Below, in pieces: positions 2,860-61,262 of a stretch of 64,000 nt of DNA. The DNA comes from Amanita rubescens (Eukaryota; Basidiomycota; Agaricomycetes; Agaricales; Amanitaceae), in NCBI GenBank assembly GCA_015039365.1, contig WION01000059.1:124001-188000 (forward strand), in the 5' to 3' direction. Numbering within the stretch: the stretch's first letter is position 1; each line of letters starts with the position of its first letter. Both the position numbers and the translations under genes were made by a program. The notes under the pieces are model-generated. The model saw only the letters and a program-made list of their open reading frames with translations, searched no databases and was not told the DNA's origin.

Positions 2860-3312
2860 TGTTACGAACTCATTAATCTCAACCTAAGTTGCAACGGCAA
2901 CTCTAGTCACGATTACAAGTCTTAAGTCAAACGTTAAGATTATAAGTTCAATACTAAGTCAAGACGTTGACTTAGGATCTGAGGACGATTGTGGTAGATG
3001 AGTTTAAGAGCAAGGTTATATTGTCAGACGACAATAAACAGCTAAGTCGAACTTAGGGTTCGACTCTAGAATACATGAGGTACTTATACTGGCAAGTACA
3101 AAGAGACGTACTAATTAATGAATAAAGGTAAGTACGAATGTAGGTATAAGGATGGCGTCATATGTGGAATAAGGAATGGTATAAGTAAGTAAACGAGCTT
3201 GTCCGTACGAATCGAGCATAAAGGGTAAGACGGATAAGGTATGCATAAAGAAAATAAACATGTCCGACGTATCATGTAAGCATAATGCGGGAGTCCGTAC
3301 CGTGTTGTAACA
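2860..3312 (-). repeat. gypsy copy A: 5' LTR
   Basis: A 453-bp LTR in reverse orientation. Read on the minus strand it starts TGTTACAACACGG and ends CGTAACA. It is nearly the same sequence as the LTRs at 12978-13428 and 33275-33725. It contains a TATA-like TATAA..TA box and a short stretch matching the primer site just downstream of the LTR. It is inserted in copia DNA: copia coding sequence begins immediately at 3313. The five bases CATGT at 3313-3317 are the expected target duplication, but the partner lies outside the window. Confidence 0.9.
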
Positions 3313-3314
3313 CA

Positions 3315-5156
3315 TGTCTCATTAAAGAGCAAGGTAATGGTTTTCTGAATTACTTACTCGCACAAGCAATTCCTGCCATTGATATTTCAAGAGATAATAT
3401 CAGAGAATATCAATACAAAGATATTCAAAAAGTCAAAATTACTGATCCCAAATCTTATGAACAATGGGAGACAGCAATGAATGATGAAATGAAATCATTG
3501 AATGATAGAAAAATCTGGGAGCTTACAGAATTACCTCATAATCGTACACCTATTAAATGTAGATGGGTATATGATATTAAATCTGACGGTCGAAAGAAGG
3601 CTCGACTTGTCGCTAAAGGATTTTCTCAAAGACCTGGACTTGACTATGATGAAACGTTTTCGCCAGTGGCAAGATATGAAACGATTCGCCTTTTGTTAGC
3701 AATATCTGTGCTAGAAAAATGGGATATTGAAGCACTAGATGTTAAAACAGCCTTTTTGTACGGAGATCTCGAAGCGGATATTTATATGCAACAACCAGAA
3801 GGTTATGTAGTCAAAGGCCAAGAACAAAAAGTTTACCAACTTAAAAAGGCAATATATGGACTTAAACAAGCCTCATATGCCTGGAATAAACAAGCTAATA
3901 AATCCTTAGAGGATTTAGGATTTATACGCTGTTTATCTGATTCTGGCGTATACGTCAGAAGAGAAGACGACACTATAATAGTGTGTATAGTATATGTCGA
4001 TGACATGCTTTTCATGGGTGACAATACACCAGAAATTCATAAAGTTAAAAATGCTTTTATGAAGAAATGGGAATGTCATGATCTTGGAAAAGTTAAAGAA
4101 TACTTAGGTATGCAAATCAATTACAATAAGAACATGGGTACTCTTATTATTGATCAACATGCATATGCAAAAAAGGTTGTAACAAGATTTGGTTTAGAAA
4201 ATTGTAAACCAACTCGTACACCTTTACCAACAGGATATATTCCAACTGCTGCTACAAAAGAATGTACAGCAGAAATGCGATCTTATTTTCAACAAATAAT
4301 AGGATCGTTGTTATATCTTGCATTAGGAACAAGACCTGATATTACTTATCAAGTAATATTAATGTCTCAGTTTTGTGCAAACCCAAATGAAGAGCACATA
4401 CAGAAAGCATTATACATAGTACGCTATGTTAATACCACTGTACAAACTAAAATAGTTTATAATGGTTTAAATAAAGAAGGCTTTGTAGCCTTTACTGATG
4501 CTGACTGGGGTGCTGACAAGATTACAAGAAAATCTGTCACTGGATATATAGTAAAACTCGCAGGAGGTGCTATATCATGGGTTTCACGAAAACAAAAAGT
4601 AGTGGCACTGTCTTCAACTGAAGCAGAATACATGTCAATGTCTGATACATCAAGACAAATAGTTTGGATTGAGTCACTTATGAGTGAACTTGATTTTCCA
4701 ATTAAAACTATTTTCTTATGTTGTGACAATCAAGGTGCAATGTTCTTAGCTAGTAATCCTGCACAAGAACATCGTTCAAAACATATTGATATAAGATTCC
4801 ACTACATTAGAGAATGTGTTGAAAGTGAGAAAATTAAACTCACATACATTCCTACCAATGAACAAGTTGCGGATATAATGACCAAAAATCTACCATATTC
4901 AAAATTTGTAATATTCCGAATGAAGATGGGATTAATCCTAGATGATAGTCAAATATCATTAAGCAATCATATTAAGGCATCACAAACTTTTGCCAATTAT
5001 ATTAAAAGTAAAACCCTTAATAAGTCCCCAGGACAACATAGTAAAATATTTGAAAGGATTCAAGATCTTGAAGTGCGAGGATATCTTGAAGAAATCTTTA
5101 AATACTATGAAAGAGAAAATGATAAATTGACTACCCTTTTGAAAGCTAATAAATAA
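3315..5156 (+). CDS. copia pol, C-terminal part: reverse transcriptase and RNase H (5' end separated by gypsy insertion)
   Basis: About 613 codons of an uninterrupted Ty1/copia polyprotein. Visible in order are the RVT_2 domain, beginning near I-W-E-L-T and R-W-V-Y-D-I-K-S-D-G, the catalytic Y-V-D-D near 3990, and the copia RNase H with S-S-T-E-A-E-Y near 4612 and the typical K-H-I-D-I-R-F-H-Y ending. The start is not natural: gypsy copy A (LTR end at 3312) has been inserted here, so Gag, protease and integrase should lie to the left of the gypsy element, outside the window. It is clearly related to, but distinct from, the full-length copia at 35779-43912. A purine-rich tract GCGAAGGGGAGTG precedes the 3' LTR. 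Confidence 0.9.
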   Translation, partial: CLIKEQGNGFLNYLLAQAIPAIDISRDNIREYQYKDIQKVKITDPKSYEQWETAMNDEMKSLNDRKIWELTELPHNRTPIKCRWVYDIKSDGRKKARLVAKGFSQRPGLDYDETFSPVARYETIRLLLAISVLEKWDIEALDVKTAFLYGDLEADIYMQQPEGYVVKGQEQKVYQLKKAIYGLKQASYAWNKQANKSLEDLGFIRCLSDSGVYVRREDDTIIVCIVYVDDMLFMGDNTPEIHKVKNAFMKKWECHDLGKVKEYLGMQINYNKNMGTLIIDQHAYAKKVVTRFGLENCKPTRTPLPTGYIPTAATKECTAEMRSYFQQIIGSLLYLALGTRPDITYQVILMSQFCANPNEEHIQKALYIVRYVNTTVQTKIVYNGLNKEGFVAFTDADWGADKITRKSVTGYIVKLAGGAISWVSRKQKVVALSSTEAEYMSMSDTSRQIVWIESLMSELDFPIKTIFLCCDNQGAMFLASNPAQEHRSKHIDIRFHYIRECVESEKIKLTYIPTNEQVADIMTKNLPYSKFVIFRMKMGLILDDSQISLSNHIKASQTFANYIKSKTLNKSPGQHSKIFERIQDLEVRGYLEEIFKYYERENDKLTTLLKANK

Positions 5157-27129: not shown

Positions 27130-28909
27130 TTGTCTCGGTAGAGCTGAGCTCCATCAAGTGAAAACATACAGACGATATCATTTTCGCCGATATCACCTCG
27201 TCCAACGGCTTCTAGGTAGTCTTCGCCATGGTAAACATCCTCATACACTGGGATTTCGTCGTTGTCCTTTGCCAGTTGCTCCAATATTTCCCGAGTTTTG
27301 CGTGCACGGTAATGCATACGATCAGCACCGTCGGGTGACCTGTACATAGCCTGAAGTTGCGGTCCCAGCGGAATGGTGCAGAAACGTTGACGTGCAACAC
27401 GTTTCTGTGAGGTGGAATCTTCATAACGTGGCTCACCGCATTGAGTACAGGCTTGAAGCGAAGAAAAAGGCCCTGTATAAGCTAAACAGCTATTAATACA
27501 CATATCTGTGTCAATGGTTTTGACTCCAGTCATATCGCAAATTTTTTTTTTGACGATGTGGAGTGAATGGATCTCAACGGGTGGGTTGCGCCGTGCCAAT
27601 GCTTTTTTCGTGTTTCTGTATGACTCCTCAGACGCGTTTGAAAGTCCAAGATAGATATCAATAGACATTCTGGTCTTCTCGTCGATATCAGGAGGGGTGC
27701 GTGATGGGTTTTTAAGTGCTGATATCATCTCAGGATCCATGTCGTCACTGAATTGAGCATTTCGTATTGATGCAATGAACTCCTGAGACAAAGCTAACTT
27801 GATATGCGACGAGCGGGGACAGTCCGTAAATGTTGAATGGAAATTTTCATTATCAGAGTCTTCTTGTACCAAAGTGTTGCGATCTCCCTCGTCCAAATCC
27901 ATCTCATTGTCTATATCCTGTTCACCCTCCCCAGCTTCATCTTCTTGGCTTTGATCGCCGTGAGGACCATATTGCCAAACACCCCGATCACCTATATCTG
28001 GCAATGATCCAGCTGCGCTGCTCTCAAAGATGCCGTTGAGCGTTCCCGGAGGCACGTCGAGATCAGATTCCACGGGCGCGCCAAAGTCCCGAGATGGATC
28101 TTCCGATGTCTCGGAGCCAGACGCATTGCAACCACTTTGCAGCGGTCCAGAAGGATTAGGCAGCGTGTCCAGATCAGGTAGCGGCGGTTGCAAGGGTGCA
28201 CTGAGGCCCCCCGATGGTTCTGGTGAGCCGGACACATTGATATTATTGCGCAGCAGTTGGGGGGACACGCCAGAACGTGGTATGGACTGTGTACGAGGGC
28301 CCAAATGTATTATAAGCTAAACGGACACAATTGAAGTCAAAACGCACCTTTTGACGTGTCCGTGGATGTGTTGGATTATCCACTGTGCCAAACTGTGAGA
28401 CGAATTCGGAGAAGCGCACATCCTTGTCCACGTCACGGTATGGTGCATGCGCTAGGTACGTCTTGTACGAGACCCACTTGTCGCCACGGCATCTCTTAGA
28501 ACATGTGCAGCGGCGTTGGCCCTGTGCATTGACTTCTCCTTCCATGTAGCCTGTAGGCCTCCGCAGAATTAAGAAAAAAATTTTACTGGGTTACCTAGCG
28601 AATAAAATGACATACCTTCTGGTCGCAGTTCGACCAGTTGCTACCGTGGGAATAGGCTGATGCGCTGCCGCTGGGTTTGGCCTGCTTTGTCCAAACTCTA
28701 GCCCAATCAATATGCCAACGGGGTCGAGACACAAGCGTTCGGGTCAAAAAGTGGTATTGCAGTGCATCTTACTCGTGGTACATGTAAGGTACAATACCTC
28801 AGTACAAGGGGAACAAAGCGGACAGTGAGGGATTCAAAAAAGGAAACTGAGGGAGCGTGTGAGATTTGTGGGACATTGCCGGCGGATGTCAGAACCGGTT
28901 TTCACTGGG

Positions 28910-31484
28910 CCTTATTTCCGATCTTATGATCAAACTCAAAGATTCGGAATACTTTACGAAATTGGATATCAGATGGGGATACAATAACGTTCAAATCAAG
29001 GAATCTGACAGATGGAAAGCCACCTTTATCACCAATCGAGGTTTATTTGAACCTAACGTCATGTTCTTTGGATTACGAAATTCACCAGCAACGTTTCAAG
29101 CTATGATGGACGATTATTTCAGGGATTTTACAGAAAAAGGATGGCTCGTCATCTACATGGATGACATGCTAATACATGCGCGCACTAAAGAAGAACTCGA
29201 GATTCGAACAAAACAAGTACTTGAACGATTACAGAAACACGATCTTTACCTCAAGCTTGAAAAGTGTAAATTCGCTGCCAAAGAAGTTGACTTTCTAGGC
29301 ACCGTCATATCCAAAAATACAATAAAAATGGACCCGATCAAACTTGCCGGAATCAGGGACTGGCCAACCCCTTCTACCGTTAAACAAGTTAGATCCTTTT
29401 TAGGATTCGGAAATTACTATCGAAGGTTTATTTTCAGATTCGCCCACCTTGCACGACCCCTGCATGACCTAATGAAGAAAAACAAATTATGGACATGGAC
29501 CGCAGAATGCCAAGTCGCATTTGATCTATTAAAAGAACGCTTCACATCCGCACCTGTCTTAATGATGCCCGATGTCAATAAACCCTTTATTCTACAAATG
29601 GATGCATCAGACCGCGCTATCGGAGCAGTTCTCATGCAGAAAGATGACAATGGCGACTTACACCCATGCGGATACCTATCCCACGCCTTAACACCGACTG
29701 AAACACGATGGCAAATCTACGACCGAGAATTATTCGCCATTTACTACGCTCTTTACAATGAATGGAGATACCTACTCGAAGGAGCAGAACACCCTGTCAT
29801 TATTCATTGCGACCATAAGAATTTACTCTACTGTCAAGAACCACAATGTCTTACGAACCGCCAAGCACGATGGTGGAACGACTTGTCTCGATTTAATATT
29901 AAATTAACCCATGTCCCTGGAGCAAAACTAATAATAGCGGATACCCTATCCCGCCGACCCGATCATATGACAAAAGACGAACCAGAAGAGTTAATAACGA
30001 TGCTCCCAAAAGAACTCTTTGTTCAAACAATCGCCGAAGATCTCCGTGATAGAGCAATAGAAATAACTGTCAAAGACGAATTTGCTCAATCAATCAAGAA
30101 ATGTCTAAAAGAAAAAGGAACACCACCTTTACGCACCGCCCTTTCTGATTGGACCCTTGACGATGAATTAATCCTGTACAAAGGGAAATCCTTTATTCCC
30201 CCTGATGCCGATCTTCGCCGAGATATTATTAGAGATTTTCATGAATCACCAACAAGCGGACACCCCGGTTTCTTCAAAACACTCGCCTTATTAAAGGAAT
30301 ACTACTGGTGGCCATTGATGTCAAAAATGGTTAAACAATTCGTTGACGGATGCACGGCATGTCAACAAATGAAATCAAATACACACCCTACTGCCGCACC
30401 TCTGATGCCAATCAAGTCTCACGCACACCGACCCTTTCAACAAATAACTATGGATTTCATAACCGATTTACCCACAAGTAACGGTTTTGATTCTATCTTT
30501 ATCGTGGTCGATCAAGGACTTACAAAGGGAGTAATTCTCATGCCTTGTAATAAAACTATCACCGCCGATGAAACCGCCGACCTCTACATTCGGAATGTAT
30601 TCAAAAACTTCGGTTTACCCGACATCATGATCTCCGATCGAGGACCACAGTTCGCATCACACATCTTTAACGGCATAATGGACTCATTAAAGATCAAACA
30701 CAAAATGAGTACCGCCTTCCATCCACAGACTGATGGACAAACGGAGCGATATAACGCCGAATTAGAAGCTTATCTCCGAATATTCTGTGCCTATGAACCA
30801 GATACTTGGAACAAGATGATACCAATAGCACAATTCGCGCATAATTCACGCACTCACAGTGAAGCATTGAAACAATCGCCCTTTCAATTGATGTATGGAA
30901 CATCCCCGGTTGCACTTCCCCTTGTCTCAAATAAGACAAATACACCAACCGCCGATAACCGCATCAACTCCTTGTTTCGCGCACGAGAAGAAGCACTCGC
31001 CGCACATGATCTAGCACGAGCTAAGATGATGGAGAGAACAACGAGAAAGACTAAACCGTTCAAAGTCAATGACAAAGTATGGTTAGAGTCTAGGAACCTG
31101 AAGATTCCTTATCAGAGCAGAAAGCTCGCACCTAAACGAGAAGGTCCCTTTTCCATTAAAGAAGTCTTAGGACCAGTGACATATCGTCTCACGCTACCAA
31201 GACAATGGAAAATTCATAACGTATTCCACGCCGCCTTACTAACGCCATTCAAAGAAACTTCCTTTCATGGAATAACGGAATCGAGGCCCCCCCCCGATCT
31301 GATCGAAGGAGAACAAGAATACGAAGTAGAAGCACTGCTTGCACATCGCAAGTTTAGAGGAAAATTACAATTTCTTGTAAAGTGGAAAGGCTATGACACC
31401 AGCGAAAACACATGGGAACCAGAAAATAACTTGACGCATATGGAAGACCTCCTTCTAGAATATAAAAGACGAAGGAAACTCTGA
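28910..31484 (+). CDS. gypsy copy B: RT, RNase H, integrase and chromodomain
   Basis: 3' part of pol, open from the insertion scar (the first codons after it are I-S-D-L) to TGA at 31482. In order: RT with F-G-L-R-N-S-P-A-T-F and catalytic Y-M-D-D near 29154; RNase H with D-A-S-D near 29602; the integrase zinc-binding region (S-G-H-P-G...C-T-A-C-Q-Q); and the integrase core with M-D-F-I-T-D, D-R-G-P-Q-F near 30637 and H-P-Q-T-D-G-Q-T-E. The chromodomain (L-V-K-W-K-G-Y, W-E-P-E-N-N-L) lies at about 31320-31460, which marks the element as a chromovirus. No internal stops. Confidence 0.93.
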
Positions 31485-37082: not shown

Positions 37083-37634
37083 GAAAGAAAACTGGATTCC
37101 GAAACTAGTACTCCGTTACCAGTTTACGAAGCCGAAGGAGAATCATTTCCTCCTACCCGGAGATTACCTCCTTCTTACGACGCTCCAATCCCACCGTTTC
37201 CCTTAATCCTAGGGGACCGAACTTTTATTGATACACCGGCACCAATTCCATCTTCGTCCTATTCCAGGACGATAGTTCGTGTTGTCAACCCTGACACCAG
37301 ATTCGGTGTCACAACTCGTGGACCTGTCACAGTTCACGATCGAAGAGATCACTTCCTAGCTGCGCGACTTACAAACGGCCGCACCTTACAAGACGAAATA
37401 ATACATCGTCGTAGACAGGAAGCTATCGAAGAAGGTGTTCCGCCCACCTTAGATCTTTGGATTCCACCCAGGGGCACTTCAGTAGCCCAACACATAGCAA
37501 ATAGGCGTACACGCCGTAATCTCGAAAGAGATAATCAAGAGGTTGAAAACCTCGAAAATCAAAGAAACTTCCGTTTCTTTTGGCGTCTTCTAACCGCCTA
37601 TATCATAATCTTCACCTCTGCCTTCCTCGTCTAA
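37083..37634 (+). other. copia leader: open frame with membrane-like C-terminus and no AUG
   Basis: 183 codons without a stop, starting right after an acceptor-like CTCTTTTAG whose TAG closes the frame upstream, and ending 2 nt before the gag-pol ATG. The composition is protein-like: a Pro-rich N-terminus, a helical Arg/Glu-rich part, and a final hydrophobic stretch (A-Y-I-I-I-F-T-S-A-F-L-V). There is no ATG in any frame in the whole 554 nt. It would be expressed only by splicing to an upstream exon or by a non-AUG start. It may equally be a leader kept AUG-free to let ribosomes reach gag. Confidence 0.45.
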
Positions 37635-37636
37635 AA

Positions 37637-40600
37637 ATGTCTAACGACTTGACGATTCCTAGTTCCATTCCCGTCTTAAATGGAACTAACTATAAAGAAT
37701 GGGAACGCATGATGCGTTTCCTATTACAAACTAAGGGACTATTTCAGTACCTTAAAGATGATTACGTTCATCCACGACGGATTACTCCGTTAGAACAATT
37801 CTTCATTGATACAGGTGTTCGTGCAGCCATAACTGCACAACCTGCGGTAGCAGCAGTTGCCGCGCATGGTACACATGCAGCAATACCTGCAATCCCAGCC
37901 GTTCAGGGTGAACCGGCTATCACCCAACAAATGGTTGATGATGCAAAGGCCGTAAAAAAGGCTTTTGAAGATTGGGTTGTCGAGGATGATCGCATCCTCG
38001 GATCCATAAATATGAAATGTTCTGCTACTATCCAGCAGATCAATTCAGAAGTAAATGCCGCAAGAGTCTTATGGCGGAATTTAGCAAATCAATACGGTGT
38101 AACAACGTCTGCCGGTATTTATAATGACTTCCAATTAGCCGTTACTTGGAAGTTTCAAGATAGAAAGGATCCCACACAATCCTTAAACGACCTCCTTGCC
38201 ATTATAAACCGCTTATCATCTAGCGGAATCGTATTGCCTGAAAATGTGCAGGCAATGATTGTACTTTCAGCTGTCCCCCGTCATTGGGACAATTTTGCCG
38301 CTGTGGTTCTTGCCACAACAGAACCATCGGATCTTACGATCCAAGGGATACTTCCCTTAATCCAGAATGAGTGGCGCCGAAGGCACCCTGAATCTGCTGC
38401 GACGGCTAATACGTCGCAACAACAGCAGCAACCATGGCAACAAGTACGTGGTCGAGGACGAGGACGTGCTCGTGGACGTGGCCGCGGAGCAGGTCGTGGA
38501 CGTGGGGGGAGGCCTTATTCTAGGCCTCCACAAGGCGCTCAAACACCGGCTCCTACTGCTCCTCCGGCAAATCAAAATTGGCCGGGTAAAGTTGAGGGCC
38601 AAACCCGTGGTCCTAACTGGGAGAGGAACCGAGAACGCCGAAAGGCAGATGCAGCTGAGAAGAAGGCTGCCAAAGCCGCAGAACATACTATGAGTTCTGC
38701 ACATACCGTTGCCCGTATTGGGCCTTATGACATCACTGAGCCAGTTGCCGGCTCTAGCAAAGGCAAACAAAGAGAAAAGGATGAACTGGACTTTGAGTCC
38801 TATAAATCGAACCGAGGAATGGGGATATCGTCAGACGATATCGATTATAAAAATATGGATATAGATCAGGAAGCTGAACTATATTACGACGATTATTACT
38901 ATGAAGATAACGGCGAACAATGGTATGAAACCATTAAGAAATTGGAAATGGCTAACTTTCTCTTTATAGAGGCAGCGATGAAAATGGTGTTCCCTAAATT
39001 GGGACATCATCGTCGTACTATAAATTCCTTCTTTGAACAATCTGTACTATATGATAGTATAAATTATAAAGAAAATTTAGACGAAAACTGCCTCGTAAGA
39101 GATAAGTTGTGTGATACAGCCATTTATAATGCAAATATGATTGAGCGATCATATAATATTGGTAACATGTTTAAGAAACCTTTTACATGTTTAGCGGTCA
39201 ATAAAAGAAAATTCAAGGATAAAGTACATCCGACATGTCCCTGTCCGGAATGTGTTGAGAAACGTACTGGAGATACACTATGGATGTGTGACTCCGGTGC
39301 ATCCGATCACTTTACCTTTAGTAGGAAAGACTTCTCTGAATACAGAGAATTTCCTGCAAATGAAAACCACAGTGTTAAAACTGCTAATGGTTTAGACCGT
39401 CTTGAGGGACTTGGCACAGTTATTCTTGAACACAAGTTATCCACAGGAGAAGTAACTCTCGTAAAGCTCTTCCCGGTATTATATATGCCACAGGCAACTG
39501 CACGCTTGATTTCAAACGGCAGATTGATCCGACAAGGATTATCTTGTAAACAAGATGAAAAGATGGTAGTCTTTTCCTTTAAAGACACGGGTAGAACGTG
39601 TATTGAAGGACATTACCTTATGCCCGAAGATACATTAGTTTACGCTCGTGGAAGGATCATTATAATGAATCCTACACTGGTTTCCGGTCCTGGCTTAGCC
39701 AACAGGAATTCAAAATTAATTCTTGATAGACCGACAAAGAAACCAAACGCAGAGTCTATAGAAAAACTATTGGACTACGAGACCTGGCATAAACGTTTTG
39801 GCCATCCATCTAACGAAGTCTTCTCGAAGATACCGTTAAATGTTAATGGATGGAAAGAAGTTACACTTCCAGAAGGAAAACTACGTTGTGAAGGTTGTCT
39901 AAAAGGCAAAATGAAGGCAAAACCTTATAAACTGTCTTCAAAGAGAGCTACTCGTCCCTTTGAGTTACTCCATATGGATCTTATGACCGTACTGGCCATA
40001 TCTTACCACAAATACAAATATATTGGTGTTATCGTTGACGATTTCACCTCGTATACGTGGATTGGTTTACTTAAAACCAAAGATCAAACTCTAGAATATT
40101 TTACCGGATGGTATAATGAGTTTGTAGATCCTAAACAACCTATTTCTCACCTCCGTTCTGATCGAGGGGGGGAATTTGTAAATAAAGCCTTTGAAGAATT
40201 CCTTAAATCCAAAGGAATTAAACATCAACAGACAGCTCCTTACACCCCACAACAAAATGGTCGCGTTGAACGCATGAATCAGACTTTGTCAGACAAAGCT
40301 GAGGCTATGCGGTTAGACGCAGGATGTCCGAAATCTTGGTGGGAGTTCTCATTCAGAACGGCTGTGCATGTCTACAACCGCACTCCCCTAAAACGGACTA
40401 AATGGAAGACCCCTCTGGAAAATCTTCTTAATAAAAAACCAGACGTATCATACTTTCGAGTATTTGGATGTGAAGCCTGGGTATTTATCCCTGATCAACG
40501 GAGACCAGATAAGCTGTCCGAGAAATCCGTTTTATGTACTTTTGTAGGATATGAATCAGGAACCAAAGGCTATAGGTTCATGACGTCGACAAACACACTG

Positions 40601-43483
40601 GTCATATCCTCCCAGGCTACATTCTTTGAAAACAGGTTTCCGCGCAAAGGAAAGACTGCAGATATAATTACTGAAGATCTTGGTCCGATCTGGGAGGCGA
40701 TTCCTCAAGAGGAACCTAACCGCCCTCCACAAAATTTGGATTTAGATGACTTACTCCCAGAGAACCGTAGACGTTCTCCGAGCTGTAGACGCTCACCAAG
40801 TTTGGATCGAAGGGGTGCATCTCCTGATCGACAGCAGTCAGACCCTTCTGATGATTCAAACGATGATGATGACGGTGATGAATTTGCCGATCGTCGAAGA
40901 GATTTTTTAGATGATAATATCCGAAGGCAAAGGGAAGATAGAGAACAAGAAAGACGTGACAATTATCATAGACAACGCGATGATTGGAAAAAGGGTCAAG
41001 GAATTGATAAACAGTCTCGTTTACGAGATCAATTCAAACGTCAAATGAGTGATATGTTTAAGAAACTTAAAACTCCTGAACCCTTTAGACGTACTCCCTC
41101 TCCACAAATTAAAGAGGAGACTCCTGTTCCTTCTAGGCCTATAACACCGATACCATATGTATCTAGGCCACCTTCTCCTCGTAGTCCTATGGATGAAGAT
41201 AATCCCTTCTCTTTGAATCAAAGAGATCGAGATGAAATAGAAAACCCATTTATGACGGATCGAGAATTTGATCAATTTGAACAACGTCAAAGAGATCGTT
41301 TTAGAGAATTTGCTCAGAGACCTAGACCTCCTCCACCGATCATATCTGATCCTGGTCCACCCTCTGTACAAATAGGTCCTCGCCGTTCTGGTCGTTTTCC
41401 AGTTCCAAGGGTACAAAGAGACAACGCGTATGGAGATAAAACTCCTGCACAGATAGAAGCGGAAATTCAGCAAAAGCGAGATGCTTTACGAGAGCAGTTA
41501 AAAGATAAAACTCCGAGTTCTTCAACTCAGGATCCACCGTCAGCAGACAGGAACCCTGATAGAATGAATGAATCTGCTTCTCTACTTAAAGAGATCTTCG
41601 CGTTAAAGTCTGAATTAAAATCCGCAGAACATGATCATTTAACCCGAATGATTAATGAATCTGGAAATGAATTCCTTCATTTTCTTCTAAAAGCGGCTGT
41701 TCCCCTTGTTGATAATATTCCATATGACTATAGAGATATATCTAAAATGCGCTCCAGTAATCCTCAATTGTATAAACAATGGAAGATTGCAATGGATGAC
41801 GAATTTAAATCTCTTCAATCTAGAGATATTTGGGAGTTAGTTGATCTTCCAAAAGGACGAAACCTAATCAGATGTCGTTGGGTTTTCGACTTAAAAACCG
41901 ATGGACGCAAAAAAGCTCGCGTCGTAGCTAAAGGTTTTAGTCAACGTCCCGGATTAGATTACGACGAAACATTCTCGCCTGTAGCGAGATATGAAACAAT
42001 CCGAATACTTCTGGCCACATCAGTGCTTGAAAATTGGGATATACAAGCCCTAGATGTAAAAACTGCCTTCTTATATGGCGATCTTGATGAAGATATTTAC
42101 ATGGCCCAGCCAGAAGGTTTCGTTGTAAAAGGACAAGAATCTAAAGTATATAGGCTGAGGAAAGCCATATATGGATTGAAACAGGCATCATATGCCTGGA
42201 ATAAACAAGCTGATAAATCGTTGAAATCATTGCATTTCGAGCGATGCTTGTCTGATTCTGGCGTTTACGTTCGTAAAGGCAAGAATACCATCACGATATG
42301 CATATTGTATGTCGATGATATACTCTTTATGGGAAATGACGATTCCACCATCGTATCCATTAAAAAGAAATTTATGGAGATGTGGGAATGTCGTGATCTT
42401 GGAAAGATCAAAGAGTATTTACGAATCCAAGTCAATTACAACCGTGATTTAGGATTCTTAGTCATAGATCAAGGACCTTATGCCTTGAAGGTTGTTAAGC
42501 GATTTGGACTTGAAAATTGCAAGTCTGTACGCACACCGTTACCTGCTGGGTATGCTCCTATAAAGAATGAAGGAGAATGCACACCACAGGAACGTTCTTA
42601 TTATCAACAGATAATAGGATCCCTTCTATATCTCGCCTTAGGAACTAGGCCTGATATAATATATGCAGTAATTTTGATGTCCCAATTTTCATCAAACCCG
42701 TCCCAAGAACACATTCAAAAAGCCTTGTATATAGTCAAATACATTGCTCATACCTTAAACGTCAAAATCGTTTATAGCGCCAAAGGCAATAATAAATTTA
42801 GAGCCTACGCTGACGCTGACTGGGCCGCTGATCGTAATACACGACGATCTATAAATGGTTATGTCTTAATGTTAGCTGGTGGTGCGGTAGCTTGGACGAG
42901 TAGAAAACAAAAGACTGTAGCTCTGTCTTCGACTGAAGCAGAATACATATCTTTATCAGATGCTGCAAGACAAATTGCATGGGTTGAAAATCTATTTTAC
43001 GAAATAGGTGCACCCATTAAAAGCATCTTACTTAGCGTAGATAATCAAGGCGCTATATTTTGGGCACAAAATCCTGCACAAGAACATCGTTCCAAACACA
43101 TTGATATTCGCTATCATTTCGTTCGCGAGTTGATCGAGACTAAAAAGGTAGTCCTCGAATATATACCAACAAACGAGCAGAATGCGGATCTCATGACTAA
43201 GAATTTATCCTTTGAAAAGGTCAAATTCTTTAGAGAACGATTGGGACTTTCCTTAGAAGAATATCCGACTTCTACAAATGCATTAATCAAAAGACCAGAT
43301 CGATTAGAGACTGAGGAAATCCGTGATCTGACGAAATTTATTCTTGATTGGCAAAATCTTGAATTAGATGGAATTGATCGTCTATCACACAGGAAGTTGA
43401 TGGAACTTCTTGATGGTCTTATTGATCAACAGGAATCGGATATAGATCCCTTCTATGATGAAAACATCATAGACTTTAAATAA
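37637..43483 (+). CDS. copia Gag-Pol polyprotein
   Basis: 1,948 aa. The first ATG (AAAATGTC) is chosen because the frame has no earlier ATG. Order: a UBN2-type Gag (about 1-260), an Arg/Gly-rich box (about 265-300), protease D-S-G-A-S near 553, and the pre-integrase H-H-C-C zinc region (~718-760). The integrase has V-D-D near 798 and S-D-R-G-G-E-F near 840. A long Arg/Asp/Pro-rich disordered linker (~1020-1300) follows, then reverse transcriptase with Y-V-D-D near 1557, and RNase H with S-S-T-E-A-E-Y near 1763. Gag has no CCHC knuckle; the RGG-like box may take over RNA binding (inference). No stop or frameshift. Confidence 0.96.
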   Translation: MSNDLTIPSSIPVLNGTNYKEWERMMRFLLQTKGLFQYLKDDYVHPRRITPLEQFFIDTGVRAAITAQPAVAAVAAHGTHAAIPAIPAVQGEPAITQQMVDDAKAVKKAFEDWVVEDDRILGSINMKCSATIQQINSEVNAARVLWRNLANQYGVTTSAGIYNDFQLAVTWKFQDRKDPTQSLNDLLAIINRLSSSGIVLPENVQAMIVLSAVPRHWDNFAAVVLATTEPSDLTIQGILPLIQNEWRRRHPESAATANTSQQQQQPWQQVRGRGRGRARGRGRGAGRGRGGRPYSRPPQGAQTPAPTAPPANQNWPGKVEGQTRGPNWERNRERRKADAAEKKAAKAAEHTMSSAHTVARIGPYDITEPVAGSSKGKQREKDELDFESYKSNRGMGISSDDIDYKNMDIDQEAELYYDDYYYEDNGEQWYETIKKLEMANFLFIEAAMKMVFPKLGHHRRTINSFFEQSVLYDSINYKENLDENCLVRDKLCDTAIYNANMIERSYNIGNMFKKPFTCLAVNKRKFKDKVHPTCPCPECVEKRTGDTLWMCDSGASDHFTFSRKDFSEYREFPANENHSVKTANGLDRLEGLGTVILEHKLSTGEVTLVKLFPVLYMPQATARLISNGRLIRQGLSCKQDEKMVVFSFKDTGRTCIEGHYLMPEDTLVYARGRIIIMNPTLVSGPGLANRNSKLILDRPTKKPNAESIEKLLDYETWHKRFGHPSNEVFSKIPLNVNGWKEVTLPEGKLRCEGCLKGKMKAKPYKLSSKRATRPFELLHMDLMTVLAISYHKYKYIGVIVDDFTSYTWIGLLKTKDQTLEYFTGWYNEFVDPKQPISHLRSDRGGEFVNKAFEEFLKSKGIKHQQTAPYTPQQNGRVERMNQTLSDKAEAMRLDAGCPKSWWEFSFRTAVHVYNRTPLKRTKWKTPLENLLNKKPDVSYFRVFGCEAWVFIPDQRRPDKLSEKSVLCTFVGYESGTKGYRFMTSTNTLVISSQATFFENRFPRKGKTADIITEDLGPIWEAIPQEEPNRPPQNLDLDDLLPENRRRSPSCRRSPSLDRRGASPDRQQSDPSDDSNDDDDGDEFADRRRDFLDDNIRRQREDREQERRDNYHRQRDDWKKGQGIDKQSRLRDQFKRQMSDMFKKLKTPEPFRRTPSPQIKEETPVPSRPITPIPYVSRPPSPRSPMDEDNPFSLNQRDRDEIENPFMTDREFDQFEQRQRDRFREFAQRPRPPPPIISDPGPPSVQIGPRRSGRFPVPRVQRDNAYGDKTPAQIEAEIQQKRDALREQLKDKTPSSSTQDPPSADRNPDRMNESASLLKEIFALKSELKSAEHDHLTRMINESGNEFLHFLLKAAVPLVDNIPYDYRDISKMRSSNPQLYKQWKIAMDDEFKSLQSRDIWELVDLPKGRNLIRCRWVFDLKTDGRKKARVVAKGFSQRPGLDYDETFSPVARYETIRILLATSVLENWDIQALDVKTAFLYGDLDEDIYMAQPEGFVVKGQESKVYRLRKAIYGLKQASYAWNKQADKSLKSLHFERCLSDSGVYVRKGKNTITICILYVDDILFMGNDDSTIVSIKKKFMEMWECRDLGKIKEYLRIQVNYNRDLGFLVIDQGPYALKVVKRFGLENCKSVRTPLPAGYAPIKNEGECTPQERSYYQQIIGSLLYLALGTRPDIIYAVILMSQFSSNPSQEHIQKALYIVKYIAHTLNVKIVYSAKGNNKFRAYADADWAADRNTRRSINGYVLMLAGGAVAWTSRKQKTVALSSTEAEYISLSDAARQIAWVENLFYEIGAPIKSILLSVDNQGAIFWAQNPAQEHRSKHIDIRYHFVRELIETKKVVLEYIPTNEQNADLMTKNLSFEKVKFFRERLGLSLEEYPTSTNALIKRPDRLETEEIRDLTKFILDWQNLELDGIDRLSHRKLMELLDGLIDQQESDIDPFYDENIIDFK

Positions 43484-56628: not shown

Positions 56629-59600
56629 TCATTGGCACATGCAAACATCTGAGGAAATGTTAGGCAAGGATGGTGGGAAGTCCAGAGAGGGCAGGTGACT
56701 TGAAGGGCTGAGAGGTTTTCCAATGGACTTTGACTTAATGCAAGAGGCACAGCATCTGCACAAATCAGGACTCAGATGCCAGCAGCTACTATTACTATGG
56801 ACTCCTACAATTTCCATTAATGGCTCATAATTATGTAGCTGCCATTCTTTTACTTGCATCCAACCTGTGTCCCTGCCAAATGTATTCCCAACAATGACAT
56901 ATGTATATGTATGTTTACATTAAAAAGAAAAATTGAGACAGATGCATGAATAACAAAAGAGAGGCATATGAGAAGTGATCTGTGTACAGATAAATATGAT
57001 CTCAATGCAAATGCAATGCAGCCAATAAATCACCTGAATATCCAATGCCAGGTGTTTCACCCTGCCATAAATTGTTCATAAGTAATGCATGACTATACAA
57101 AGAACCTACCATCAATGTGAGTCACCTGCCTATAGAGTAATGTGACCATATCTTGATAACCAGAGTGCAGAAATTCAGCAGTGATTTCAGTCTTCAGCTT
57201 CTGAGCATAGCAGTTTTGCTGGTATTGATACAAGGCTTGTGTAACAGATGGCAGAAATGCTCTGTTGATCCAAAAGGATAGCTTGGCAATGACAATAATT
57301 GCTTCAAAGTTTGAGCATAAATACAGTAAATGAAAAGGAATAATTTACAAACTAAGATCTGGCAACCAGTAGGCTTGTTGCAATGGTATCAGTTGCATAT
57401 CATTCAGAAAGGAAAGATCAAATACCATGATGGCAAAGTGCCGTTTCCTGTCTCCAAACATGGAGAAAAGTTCATCCTAGTTAGTGTGAGATTAGTGTGA
57501 CAGTAAAACACCCAATGTATCATCAAACCTACACACTAGCATGCAAACTAATGTGAAAATCAATGTCTCATTAACCACCATCACTTACCTAGAAGTAATA
57601 TAAATGACAACAAAATTATCACATGAGGTGGAAGTGGGTGGGCTGAAGTGAAATCTTACAATCTACGATGATAATAATGTAAAAGGAAGACATGGAAAAG
57701 ATATGGCAATATGCTCACTTTCTGATATATGTATGTAAGATGTGATGGGACTCCCTTTCACAAAATGTGCAACATCACTCACTTCCTGTTGGTCATAGGA
57801 AAAGCTGTGATGGGACTCCCTTTCACAAAATGTGCAACATCACTCACTTCCTGTCAGTGATAGGAAAAGATGTGATGAGTCCACTTTTCACAAAATGTGC
57901 AATGTCACTCACAAGCTGTTGGTCATAGGAAAAGATGTCATGGTCATGAGACTGCCTTTCATATAATGTGCAATGTCACTCACTCCCTGTTGGTCATAGG
58001 AAAAATGTGATGAGACTGGCTTTCACAAATGTGCTGGTCACTCACAAGCTATTGGTCATAGGAAAATGTTTGATGAGACTGGCTATCACACAATGTACAT
58101 TGAATGTCACTGACTCGCTGTTAGTCATAGGAATTGAAAGGTGTCATGAAACTGGCTTTCACAAAATGTGCAATGTCACTCACAAACTGTTGGTCACAGG
58201 AAAAGATGTGATGGGTCTACCTTTCACAAAATGTGCAATGTCACTCACTCCCTGTTGGTAATAGGAAAAGATGTGATGAGACTGGCTTTCACAAACTGTG
58301 CAATGTCACTGACTCGCTGTTGATCATAGGAAAAGAGTCTGCCTTTCACACAAATGTGTAATATTACTCACAACCTCCAAGTTGGTAGGAAAAGATGTGA
58401 TGAGCTCATCGCCTTTCATAAGATGTCCAATGTCACTCACAAACTGTTGGTCATAGGAAAAGATGTGATGAGACTGCCTTTCACATAGTATGCAATGTCA
58501 CTCACTCCCTGTTGGTCTGATGTGATGACTGCTTTTCATAAAATGTGCAATACAACTCACCCCCTGTTGGCCATAGGAAAAGATGTGATGATATGTACTG
58601 CCTTTCACAAAATGTACAATAGCACTCACTCCCTGTTGGTCATAGTAGGAAAAGATGTGATGAGATTGTCTTTGACAAAGTATACAATTTCACTCACTCC
58701 CTGTTGATCATAGAAAAGATGTGATTAGACTGCATCCACAAAAATCTTCAATGTTGTCACTCACATCCTGTCAGGAATAGGGAAAAATACTTAGAGTAGT
58801 TTTCTAGAAATATTTGCAATGTTACTCACATACTGTAGGTCACAGGAAAATTTTGGAAAAGATCATCTTTGAGACAAGCTGGCATGACACTGACCTTCTA
58901 TAGGAAAAGATGTGATTTCACTGCTTAGTACTCACAATATCACTCACAATCTGTAGAACATGAGAATGTCTCCAGAGTGTCTTGCAGCAGAGCAGCTAGC
59001 AACACTCACTTCCTTTAAGAATTAAATTAGCATAATGAGTTGGGAATACAGAAAACAATGGCACTGACTCTCTTTTGCCATAGTATTTCATATGATGAAT
59101 TCAAATCTCACAAAAGTATCACATACATCCTGTTTGTGTTGCAATAGCTTGTCAAGAGGAATTGGGAGGGGGGAGATATTGATATTTACTGTCTGTTGTT
59201 TTGGGACAAGATGTAATGTTTATAATCAGACAGAGGGAAATGTCACTTACTTCCTGTTATTAATACAATGAAGTTTGCTGAGCATTGATTTCAAATAACA
59301 GTAAGTCACCCAACTTTCTATTGTTCATTGAATTATGTAGAACTTGGGCAACATCAATGTTGCTTACTTTCTTTAAGCAGGTTAGATGTGGTGTGAGGCA
59401 GTGTTGTGTTACTCACTCCCTGTCCATGAAGGATTGACAAGTCTGCTTACAAAGATGGAGTAACTTACTTGCTGTTGGTCACCATAGGATCATTTACCAA
59501 AAATCAAAATTGGGTCATGTCACTCACTTCCTGTAGAGTATTGGAGATAAGACTGCTGATGGTGAAAGGACACATTGCTCACAAACTGTTGTCATGAGAA

Positions 59601-61262
59601 AATATATCAGATCTATGCCAGTTCAATGCCACTCACCCACTGATATTAATGTCATCAGATCCTGCCAGCAAGAATATGGTGACAACTAACCTCTGTTTCA
59701 CTTAGTTGTTGATTAGACATCTGAGGTATGACTGGTTTTTTTTTTTCATTTGAAGGCAGTGGAGTGTTACTTACCTCCTGATGAACTTTTTGCAAGTCTT
59801 TGTCATTCCATATGAAGGCCACCTACCTCCCTGTCAACCTATTGACATTATAACTTTTCCTATACTAATGTGCAGTTTGACCAAAATGCATACCCAGAAA
59901 TGTGGAAATTTTGAAAAAACTATGATGATGACATGATCCCATGTCAAATGTTGATGTTTCAGAACATGTCTGAACATTGTCAATGTTAGTAAGTGACATT
60001 GTGAATTTGACCCTCACTGAAGTGCAGATTTAACACAAAGGTCAAGATTATTCATCTGAGTTGAAATAAACAGCTGGTGCATGCTATCACTATCTATGAC
60101 ATCAGCAGTTGTCTGAGTCAATTCAGCACAATCATTCTCTGGTAAATCCAGATCTATAAAAGAACATCACTCCCATTTTCAAGAAGAAATACTCATCATT
60201 CTCACCTTCAAACCGCACAAATGCCTTGGGAGGATAGTTCACTTCCAAAACTTTAGGAAGATAAACTTGCTGAAAAGTGATTTCAGCAATGTTCCTGGCT
60301 CTCTCCCACTTATCTTCATCATTCAAGTTTGTATCAGTCAAGTTGACAAATGCACTTGCTATTTGACCATCAAATTTGGTGAATATAACCACCAAAGGAA
60401 CTATAAAGGAAATATTTACTAGTCAGTACTAGTAGATTTGTGGGAAGTTTGCCAATGGAAAGGAGGTACAATAGTTAATCCAGCAAGTGCAACAAGATGA
60501 GATATGAATTCATTAGGACTTGCCTCTGCCTGTCCCTTTATTGAAGAATTCAAGTTCAGCAGGTAGAATGGGACGAGGGTCATCCATGGGTATACAGTAC
60601 CTAGAGGCAGGTCAGCCAGTATTGTAATGGGATAAAGCAAGATACCAAATTGCATGCAGCTGGTTTTTCAGCTCAGTTTCTGCAGACTTCTTTTCAATGA
60701 ACTTCCAAGTAATCCCCAATTCCTCAGTTGAACCAGATTCAAAACCCAGAGAGTCATGGAAGATAAAGTTACTTCCAGGGTATGTAATTTGATACTCAAT
60801 ATCATGTTTGCCTCTCTGTTATCCACTGCATGTGAATAGGTACATCTACACATTGGTCTGAGTCACCTCAAGTGATGGCATGATTTGAATCCGTTGTCCA
60901 AGCTGATTACCTGCAAGGAACTCAACAGCTAAAGGAAGCACAAAACTCAGACCAACTTACTACCATAATATATGATGGGCCTTGTCCCCCTTGCTACACC
61001 ACAAACCTTCTCAAGGATAGTTGTCTTGCCTGCATTAGCCCTCCCCATGACAAGAATGCGCAAGTGTGGGCATAGATAGTATTCCCTGAGCATTTGAACA
61101 TCTGTCTCATCCACATCTGATGGTATATGTCAAGGATCAGCCACCATGCTGAGAAACATAAATTGGCCTACCCGCACTAGGAGTTGCAGTTGCCATCATA
61201 ATTGATGTTGTGTTAGGATCAGATAGCTGGGTGTGTGAATCAAGAACTTGAAGCTGTGACAT
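56629..61262 (-). CDS. G-domain GTPase gene with a micro-exon array
   Basis: Basidiomycete G-domain protein. Exons E1-E8: 61172-61262, 60961-61116, 60867-60910, 60646-60815, 60524-60600, 60206-60400, 60018-60153, 59894-59969, all in phase. The intron at 60401-60523 is GC-AG. GTPase motifs: G1 G-R-A-N-A-G-K-T, G3 H-D-S-L-G-F-E-S-G and G4 T-K-F-D-G. E7 has the family's closing N-N-L-D-L-C-V-K. After E8 come exons of 4, 3 and 2 nt, then 33 exons of exactly one codon each (57660-59639), then exon 57353-57476 (D-E-L-F-S-M-F-G-D). Probable exons follow at 57126-57301 and about 56629-56875 with TGA at 56629. The last joins are uncertain. GTP binding is secure; the downstream role is unknown. Confidence 0.8.
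57477..57659 (-). other. 183-bp intron with an internal AG|GTAAGT site
   Basis: From the last one-codon exon to exon 57476 the DNA reads as one intron, or as two introns (57589-57659 and 57477-57588) with a zero-length exon at TTCTAG|GTAAGTG. Such AG|GT points allow stepwise (recursive) removal. Confidence 0.55.
57660..59830 (-). other. array of 46-82-bp introns separated by single-codon exons
   Basis: Reading the minus strand, each unit is donor (mostly GTGAGT, also GTAAGT, GTCAGT, GTATGT), a 46-82-nt body, acceptor (mostly CAACAG or CTACAG), then three exon bases and the next donor. One-codon exons sit, for example, at 59637-59639, 59583-59585, 59528-59530, 59469-59471, 59417-59419, 58830-58832, 58561-58563, 58184-58186, 57913-57915 and 57660-57662. 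The first exons are 59827-59830 (4 nt), 59775-59777 (3 nt) and 59691-59692 (2 nt), summing to nine. None of the 33 codons from 59639 on is a stop; Gly (7), Glu (5) and Lys (4) are commonest. Confidence 0.85.
57719..58767. repeat. ~63-bp minisatellite, about 17 units
   Basis: On the plus strand the unit reads through TTTCACAAAATGTGCAATG, TCACTCAC, a variable triplet, CTGTTGGTCATAGG and AAAAGATGTGATGAGACT. Unit length is 55-71 bp. It coincides with the 3' half of the intron array. Related but strongly diverged units continue to about 59830. Confidence 0.93.

Follow-up and report, generated by a model that had tools for sequence, protein, structure and literature searches.

Can a segment of protein be encoded with a separate exon for almost every amino acid? 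This question is raised by a gene on the minus strand of a 64,000-nucleotide (nt) stretch of DNA from the mushroom Amanita rubescens (assembly GCA_015039365.1, contig WION01000059.1, positions 124,001 to 188,000), here called the window and numbered from its first letter. Between ordinary exons of a gene for a GTPase, the original prediction had placed more than 30 consecutive exons of one codon each. The claim was borne out, as a prediction, when the gene was modelled: it contains 34 single-codon exons in total, of which 33 form an unbroken run. The stretch is very likely coding: 34 codons of this GTPase-family gene each occupy a predicted 3-nt exon, and splicing probably joins them into one in-frame peptide.

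The hand-assembled gene consists of 47 predicted exons totalling 1,294 nt in a single frame of 431 residues, free of stops as had been claimed for the array triplets. The single-codon exons comprise a GAG codon (E) at 59777-59775, followed by the run of 33 from TGG at 59639-59637 to ATT at 57662-57660, and the array spans 59.84-57.66 kilobases (kb). Each unit has its own donor, intron body, acceptor and three bases, as proposed, although the intron-like sequences between the single-codon exons measure 46-68 nt instead of 46-82 nt. The acceptors of the 34 exons include 30 CAG or TAG and four AAG or GAG (59370, 59071, 59012 and 58374), while 23 of the donors read GTRAGT and 11 are others such as GTCAGT and GTTGGG. 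Entry into the array in phase 0 after eight upstream exons also stood, with a modelled sum of 882 nt replacing the proposed 945 nt; the last of these, exon 8 (59894-59969), ends ..SKFPHFW in phase 0. At the start of the array the layout had to be amended, as a 12-nt exon, VDRE (59838-59827), and a 30-nt exon, MSNQQLSETE (59720-59691), lie beside one-codon exons near 59.8-59.7 kb. Both were set with the help of relatives resembling complementary DNA (cDNA): VDR or VGRD follows FPHxW in P0002, P0003 and P0035, and MSNQQLSETE, together with the subsequent codons, aligns with VTNEQLSETK of P0002 (expectation value, E, 1e-13). Throughout, L denotes a locus, C a contig, and P a compared database protein or open reading frame (ORF).

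The regularity of the spacing extends far beyond this gene. The genome searched was a 75.7-megabase assembly of 786 contigs, from which 20 loci were parsed. Within their array spans, the nearest upstream YAG lies exactly 3 nt from 821 of 873 GTRAGT donors, as compared with approximately 3% of random positions, which upholds the claim that 3-nt spacing is not expected by chance. The other 52 donors include 22 with AAG exactly 3 nt upstream and eight zero-length AG^GTRAGT sites. Stops are absent from all 821 triplets; when the allelic L055 and L059 are left out, the count is 0 of 695, against 45.7 expected from positional base frequencies. The stop and spacing counts are not independent trials, because the units share descent. 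Genome-wide, the motif YAG-NNN-GTGAGTGACATTG with at most one mismatch occurs at 1,575 + 1,486 places, against 3 + 4 for the reversed control, and 1,570 exact occurrences compare with none for that control. Other spacings between the splice sites are rare, with 13 exact sites at 2 nt, six at 4 nt and 31 at 6 nt. The six-nucleotide sites comprise 22 clean two-codon exons without stops and nine that contain a second YAG and are ambiguous with the 3-nt class. In the 20 loci, 414 exact matches accompany 1,092 parsed triplets; scaled to 1,570 matches, this ratio gives roughly 4,000 single-codon exons in the genome, a figure that counts both haplotypes and derives from loci chosen by the pattern itself or by family exons. 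The longest arrays parsed have about 80 single-codon exons. All 51 rare-spacing and stop sites lie upstream of the family's C-terminal exon on the same strand, as do 89 of the first 100 listed of the 1,570 three-nucleotide sites, and the remaining 11 of these belong to the second array on contig C3; this placement used 98 of 150 listed C-terminal exon matches.

The run of 33 exons is composed of two blocks that differ in their evolution. The first, a conserved block (58830-59639), consists of 15 consecutive single-codon exons, W F E Q G K K E T D R E I K Y; the second, a variable block (57660-58767), consists of 18, D G G G G F V R G F R L G L E E K I. The proposed comparison of orthologous loci in related mushrooms was run instead on paralogues of the same genome and on proteins of other fungi, and revealed conserved codons in the former and joined residues in the latter. 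The FPHxW exon was located in 42 loci, of which 38 have the W-F codons in their arrays (exceptions: L012, L026, L027 and L028); this survey omits eight loci repeating others and retains some allelic pairs. Among 30 loci with at least 12 parsed codons, some of them allelic or near-identical, alignment from W-F finds K6 in 27, E12 in 26, D10 in 25 and G5 in 22. In 12 loci aligned from W-F-E/D/Q, where positions 1-3 are alike by selection, G5, K6, D10, R11 and E12 each have the same codon in 11, and the accompanying intron bodies are 0.67-0.79 identical. Conserved-block introns of these 12 loci share 0.733 identity at the same position across loci and 0.507 at different positions, whereas within one locus they are 0.505 identical, against 0.480 for shuffled sequence; L055, L058 and L059 were omitted from the codon and intron comparisons. 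A repeat artefact is an unlikely source of this block, since its approximately 15 introns are hardly mutual copies and nevertheless stand one codon apart and are shared by position across paralogues. The original description of the introns as unlike one another thus holds for the conserved block, with its within-locus identity of about 0.51, and fails from 58733 to 57737, where Tandem Repeats Finder places a diverged tandem repeat of ~65 base pairs (bp) that contains most of the variable block. Across loci, variable-block introns are alike within a locus (mean identity 0.53-0.975), while the codons differ between loci.

The array residues are contiguous in database ORFs on short 'jgi' contigs, which pass through the array region without introns and are taken here for transcripts, a status that the source itself does not state. 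P0002 has VTNEQLSETKWFEKGKKESDREIEYD, which aligned to the window's array codons at E 1e-13; P0035 aligned to the same codons at E 2e-8, and the array of L011 aligned to P0022 at E 9e-6. P0014 has WFAEAKKQADGEREYFQ, of which 14 of 17 residues match arrays of the type found on contig C737 (WFADAKKQADKEREYFE), and these loci are also its best matches in the GTPase domain. Similarly, the best array for P0022 (9/17) and P0027 (8/17) is that of L011, which is also their best GTPase match. P0002 agrees with the window array at 14 of 17 residues and P0035 with L029 at 13 of 17, their GTPase parts fitting other loci best; among the arrays read, the best agreement is weaker for P0029 (9/17), P0108 (10/17) and P0129 (6/17). 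Residues 162-427 of the window protein are collinear with the intronless P0129 through both borders of the array (286 columns, E 5e-88), and P0108, which maps to contigs C46 and C124, shares 97% identity with an A. rubescens gene model across 135 residues. The introns are probably spliced out to leave one peptide, because these cDNA-like relatives carry the same amino acids joined.

The codons of the arrays differ from those in ordinary exons of the same genes. In units of the form YAG-triplet-GTRAGT, glutamine is encoded by CAA in 92 of 92 cases (71 CAA and 63 CAG among 134 in ordinary exons), arginine by CGA in 82 of 88 (6 of 98) and glycine by GGA in 76 of 82 (24 of 122). These figures come from such units only, by which most copies of the conserved arginine codon, AGA, are dropped; the full parse contains AGA as 22 of 139 arginine codons and CAG as none of 115 glutamine codons. 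AG-containing codons are rare in these units, which would be expected if such codons create false acceptors.

Comparisons among units and among closely related loci indicated how the arrays vary. One identical 62-nt intron is found 200 times in seven loci, including one allelic and one near-identical pair, after 21 different codons. Among unit pairs picked for an intron difference of at most 10%, codon sites differ in 33-65% and intron sites in 0.4-5% of cases in five loci, each of which yielded over 300 pairs; the seven other loci compared, with 1-24 pairs each, have ratios of 3.4 to 10.3. L050 and L055, aligned over 5,738 nt, differ by one substitution, one whole 65-nt unit and a 7-nt insertion or deletion (indel) outside the codons, while L052 and L059 are separated by a 3-nt indel and four substitutions, of which one alters a codon (CGA/CAA). 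In L058 and L056, 9 of 170 codon sites differ (for instance ATC to CGA and GCA to CTA), compared with 11 of the 3,557 sites elsewhere. The simplest account would be an exchange of whole units between like introns combined with selection for varied codons.

A mechanism can be proposed on this basis. Splicing would proceed intron by intron, as most introns possess both a strong donor and a strong acceptor and would need little help from a 3-nt exon. After ordinary splicing, the array peptide would have the GTPase domain on one side and the conserved C-terminal domain on the other. The near-identical introns of the variable block could act as stretches of homology for unequal exchange and gene conversion, by which whole codon-intron units might be added, dropped or swapped while the frame is kept and one amino acid is altered each time. 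Selection would hold the codons diverse while the introns become homogenised, and with their repeated introns these genes may be able to exchange individual amino acids at an unusually high rate. The predicted product is a GTPase with an IRG/septin-like fold, followed by a helix and then a hypervariable, probably disordered linker. Compared with the immunity-related GTPases (IRG), dynamin-like proteins and septins, this fungal family differs in having 10-12% identity, with template-modelling (TM) values of about 0.3-0.4, and its array-encoded part has no confidently modelled structure. One guess is that the linker serves recognition, of non-self or of pathogens. The broader proposition, for which the balance of evidence is slightly favourable, is that introns have been turned into recombination spacers, making the array a codon-cassette engine for hypervariable, probably recognition, GTPases, with thousands of units in one genome.

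Several observations weigh against this combined interpretation. The array exons are known here as predictions from DNA, and the case for a recognition role is made by variability and a weak resemblance of fold. The 'jgi' ORFs seem to come from other species, except perhaps P0108, and for P0002, P0029, P0035, P0108 and P0129 the best-matching array is not at the locus with the best GTPase match; P0129 is poor on the array codons (6/17) despite its aligned borders. An A. rubescens gene model, P0064, runs from FPHYW straight to the C-terminal domain with no array residues. Both C- and G-ending codons are avoided, and avoidance of splice sites leaves the deficit of C-ending ones unexplained. The selection of unit pairs by intron likeness lowers the intron figure in the comparison of codons with introns, and L058 and L056 also differ by seven indels of 1-3 nt. 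A stop triplet, TAA or TGA, fills the three-base slot once genome-wide, at C537:2928 (TAG never does). A first automatic parse produced five TGA triplets at three independent places, two of which were resolved as two-codon exons (CGAGCA and CTTCAA), while the TGA in L050/L055 is fitted equally well by GAA|GTGAGT. Finally, L018 on contig C13 and contig C749 have 2-nt and 4-nt exons, and L056 has one 4-nt exon.

Of the alternatives, the one that survives best accepts real single-codon exons and holds that their main point is alternative splicing, with in-frame skipping generating many isoforms in each mycelium. All 34 units of the window are in phase 0, so that any skip would keep the frame, and variation through skipping is reported for the micro-exon genes of flatworms (PMC7653826). 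However, short introns with their own splice sites favour splicing from neighbour to neighbour, and codon-by-codon conservation of the 5' block would be disfavoured under constant skipping; this explanation is unlikely. Less plausible still is a burst of introners, in which mobile introns inserted after each codon of a pre-existing ordinary exon and left the codons as remnants. Near-identical introns do occur beside many different codons, and introner-like elements are known in fungi (PMC4457414). Such insertion would not explain the exact 3-nt, phase-0 spacing. Among the sites placed, moreover, all 51 rare-spacing and stop sites and 89 of the first 100 listed 3-nt sites lie in the GTPase family; array codon usage is unlike that of ordinary exons; and two near-identical arrays differ by one whole codon-intron unit.

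A third explanation regards the array as a non-coding tandem repeat within one large intron, the 3-nt spacing being inherited with the repeat unit. The 65-bp array found by Tandem Repeats Finder at 57737-58733, the nearly identical units of some arrays and the absence of array residues from P0064 are in its favour. It is very improbable in view of the first 15 introns, which are barely more alike than shuffled sequence (0.505 against 0.480) and yet are conserved by position one codon apart; moreover, 0 of 821 triplets are stops, the array residues are joined in intronless ORFs, and identical introns adjoin different codons. That the arrays are assembly artefacts or dead gene copies, as the susceptibility of repeats to mis-assembly, the 2-nt and 4-nt exons of L018 and C749 and the splitting of the C3 locus by a copia-like element might suggest, is hardly credible when W-F codons persist in 38 of 42 loci (some of them allelic pairs), near-identical pairs on different contigs agree, and frame is kept at 1,570 exact sites. 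A stwintron, an intron that interrupts the splice site of another intron, was considered but does not describe the window, whose array units each possess a separate donor and acceptor and are parted by a codon.

The predicted coding array was compared with several known systems. Micro-exon genes (MEGs) are defined by exons shorter than 70 nt and divisible by three, with at least seven exons, at least half of them micro-exons, and a run of at least four (PMC7653826). The predicted window gene falls within this definition, with 47 exons, 34 of them of 3 nt in addition to those of 12, 30 and 51 nt, and a run of 33. The MEGs of schistosomes and tapeworms have consecutive in-frame tiny exons, some encoding one amino acid, the skipping of which varies a single residue (PMC7653826). 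The mushroom arrays resemble them in their runs of consecutive in-frame tiny exons, but are composed almost entirely of one-codon exons (about 80 in the longest) in a fungal GTPase family. They are also set apart by introns that are in part homogenised copies in tandem, and by the 1,570 exact occurrences of the motif in the genome. Isolated micro-exons, such as the 1-nt exons of APC11 in Arabidopsis (PMC4674806) and of CYP621A in Fusarium (PMC12940212), show that splicing can include exons as short as 1-3 nt, in a fungus too, but represent single events in ordinary genes and do not form arrays. Fungal introner-like elements are near-identical spliceosomal introns in many copies (PMC4457414), whereas the mushroom introns, at the sites examined, stand in arrays of one family at fixed 3-nt intervals.

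Genes with diversifying repeats offer a further comparison. In Podospora anserina, translated WD repeats of the hnwd genes recombine and diversify non-self recognition (PMC2873952). The mushroom repeats are similarly homogenised with hypervariable codons (33-65% difference in codons and 0.4-5% in introns in five loci), but here the repeat is a predicted intron from which one codon per unit would reach the protein, whereas in hnwd the repeat is itself protein. TAL effector repeats are translated, and their nearly identical DNA units vary chiefly in one or two codons. The mushroom repeat, by contrast, is predicted to be spliced out. Among the papers listed by searches of the open-access literature, judged by titles and beginnings of abstracts, none reports coding arrays with one codon per exon or introns used as homology spacers. 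If any run of in-frame micro-exons is taken to define a micro-exon gene, the arrangement would be a variant of that class.

If this interpretation is correct, DNA repeats can homogenise and shuffle freely while the protein stays free of repeats, which would provide a route for repeats to diversify a protein without a repetitive product. A peptide segment split at every codon, dozens in a row, would represent exon-intron structure at its limit and would test how the spliceosome handles exons this small. The family would also offer a natural system for the study of rapid evolution, of how introns become homogenised and of how the demands of splicing shape the choice of codons. Gene finders would then be overlooking a portion of these genes; most of the A. 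rubescens and A. brunnescens gene models read end before, at or shortly past FPHxW, and P0064 passes directly to the C-terminal domain.

The remaining parts of the window gene, all on the minus strand, are more conventional. Exons 1-2 (61199-61172 and 61116-60961) encode the N-terminus and the GTPase P-loop (GRANAGKTT), as indicated by the stop-free spliced model and by homologues, and exons 3-7 (60910-60867, 60815-60646, 60600-60524, 60400-60206 and 60153-60018) complete the GTPase domain. Exon 5 is followed by an intron of the GC-AG type, which starts with GCAAGT at 60523. Downstream of the array, a 183-nt intron (57477-57659) has AG^GTAAGT in its interior, at 57589/57588, a candidate 'recursive' splice site of zero nucleotides. 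Candidate recursive (ratchet) sites, consisting of a zero-length AG^GTRAGT near the 3' end of the array, occur in 8 of the 20 parsed loci: the window, L009, L010, L011, L012, L016, L017 and L054. The spliced model continues with the post-array exon DELFSMFGDRKRHFAIM (57426-57476), a 25-nt exon, PTGCQILV(S) (57349-57373; compare PTACQVLIS in P0129), and a C-terminal exon, IIVIAKLSFWINRAFLPS.. (..AKLSFWIN.., 57110-57301), where the model ends, before a stop. Pfam gave two GTPase matches, both sub-threshold (MMR_HSR1 at E 0.0019, below its cut-off), and a protein search with the array and C-terminal part alone returned no scored match. The closest protein to the window gene is from A. rubescens, with 97% identity over 65% of the query.

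This genome has a very large family of these GTPases: exon matches to the GTPase part of P0002 number 285, and those to the C-terminal exon 150. Many near-identical family pairs lie on different contigs and may represent two haplotypes. Two arrays, at C749:2130-4147 and on C13 (L018:4548-5717), account for all 13 exact 2-nt cases and four of the six exact 4-nt cases; C749 alone has 10 of the former and three of the latter. Decaying copies or sequencing errors are candidate readings of these two arrays. On C3 (L013/L014, C3:121500-140000) there are two arrays with no GTPase exon in the upstream stretch that was read; a copia-like reading frame precedes the first array, a GTPase exon lies on the same strand at C3:115105, and the locus looks as if an element had inserted into the gene. 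The window itself contains copia- and gypsy-like retrotransposon polyprotein frames, recognised by eye, at 3285-5156, 28866-31484 and 37580-43483.

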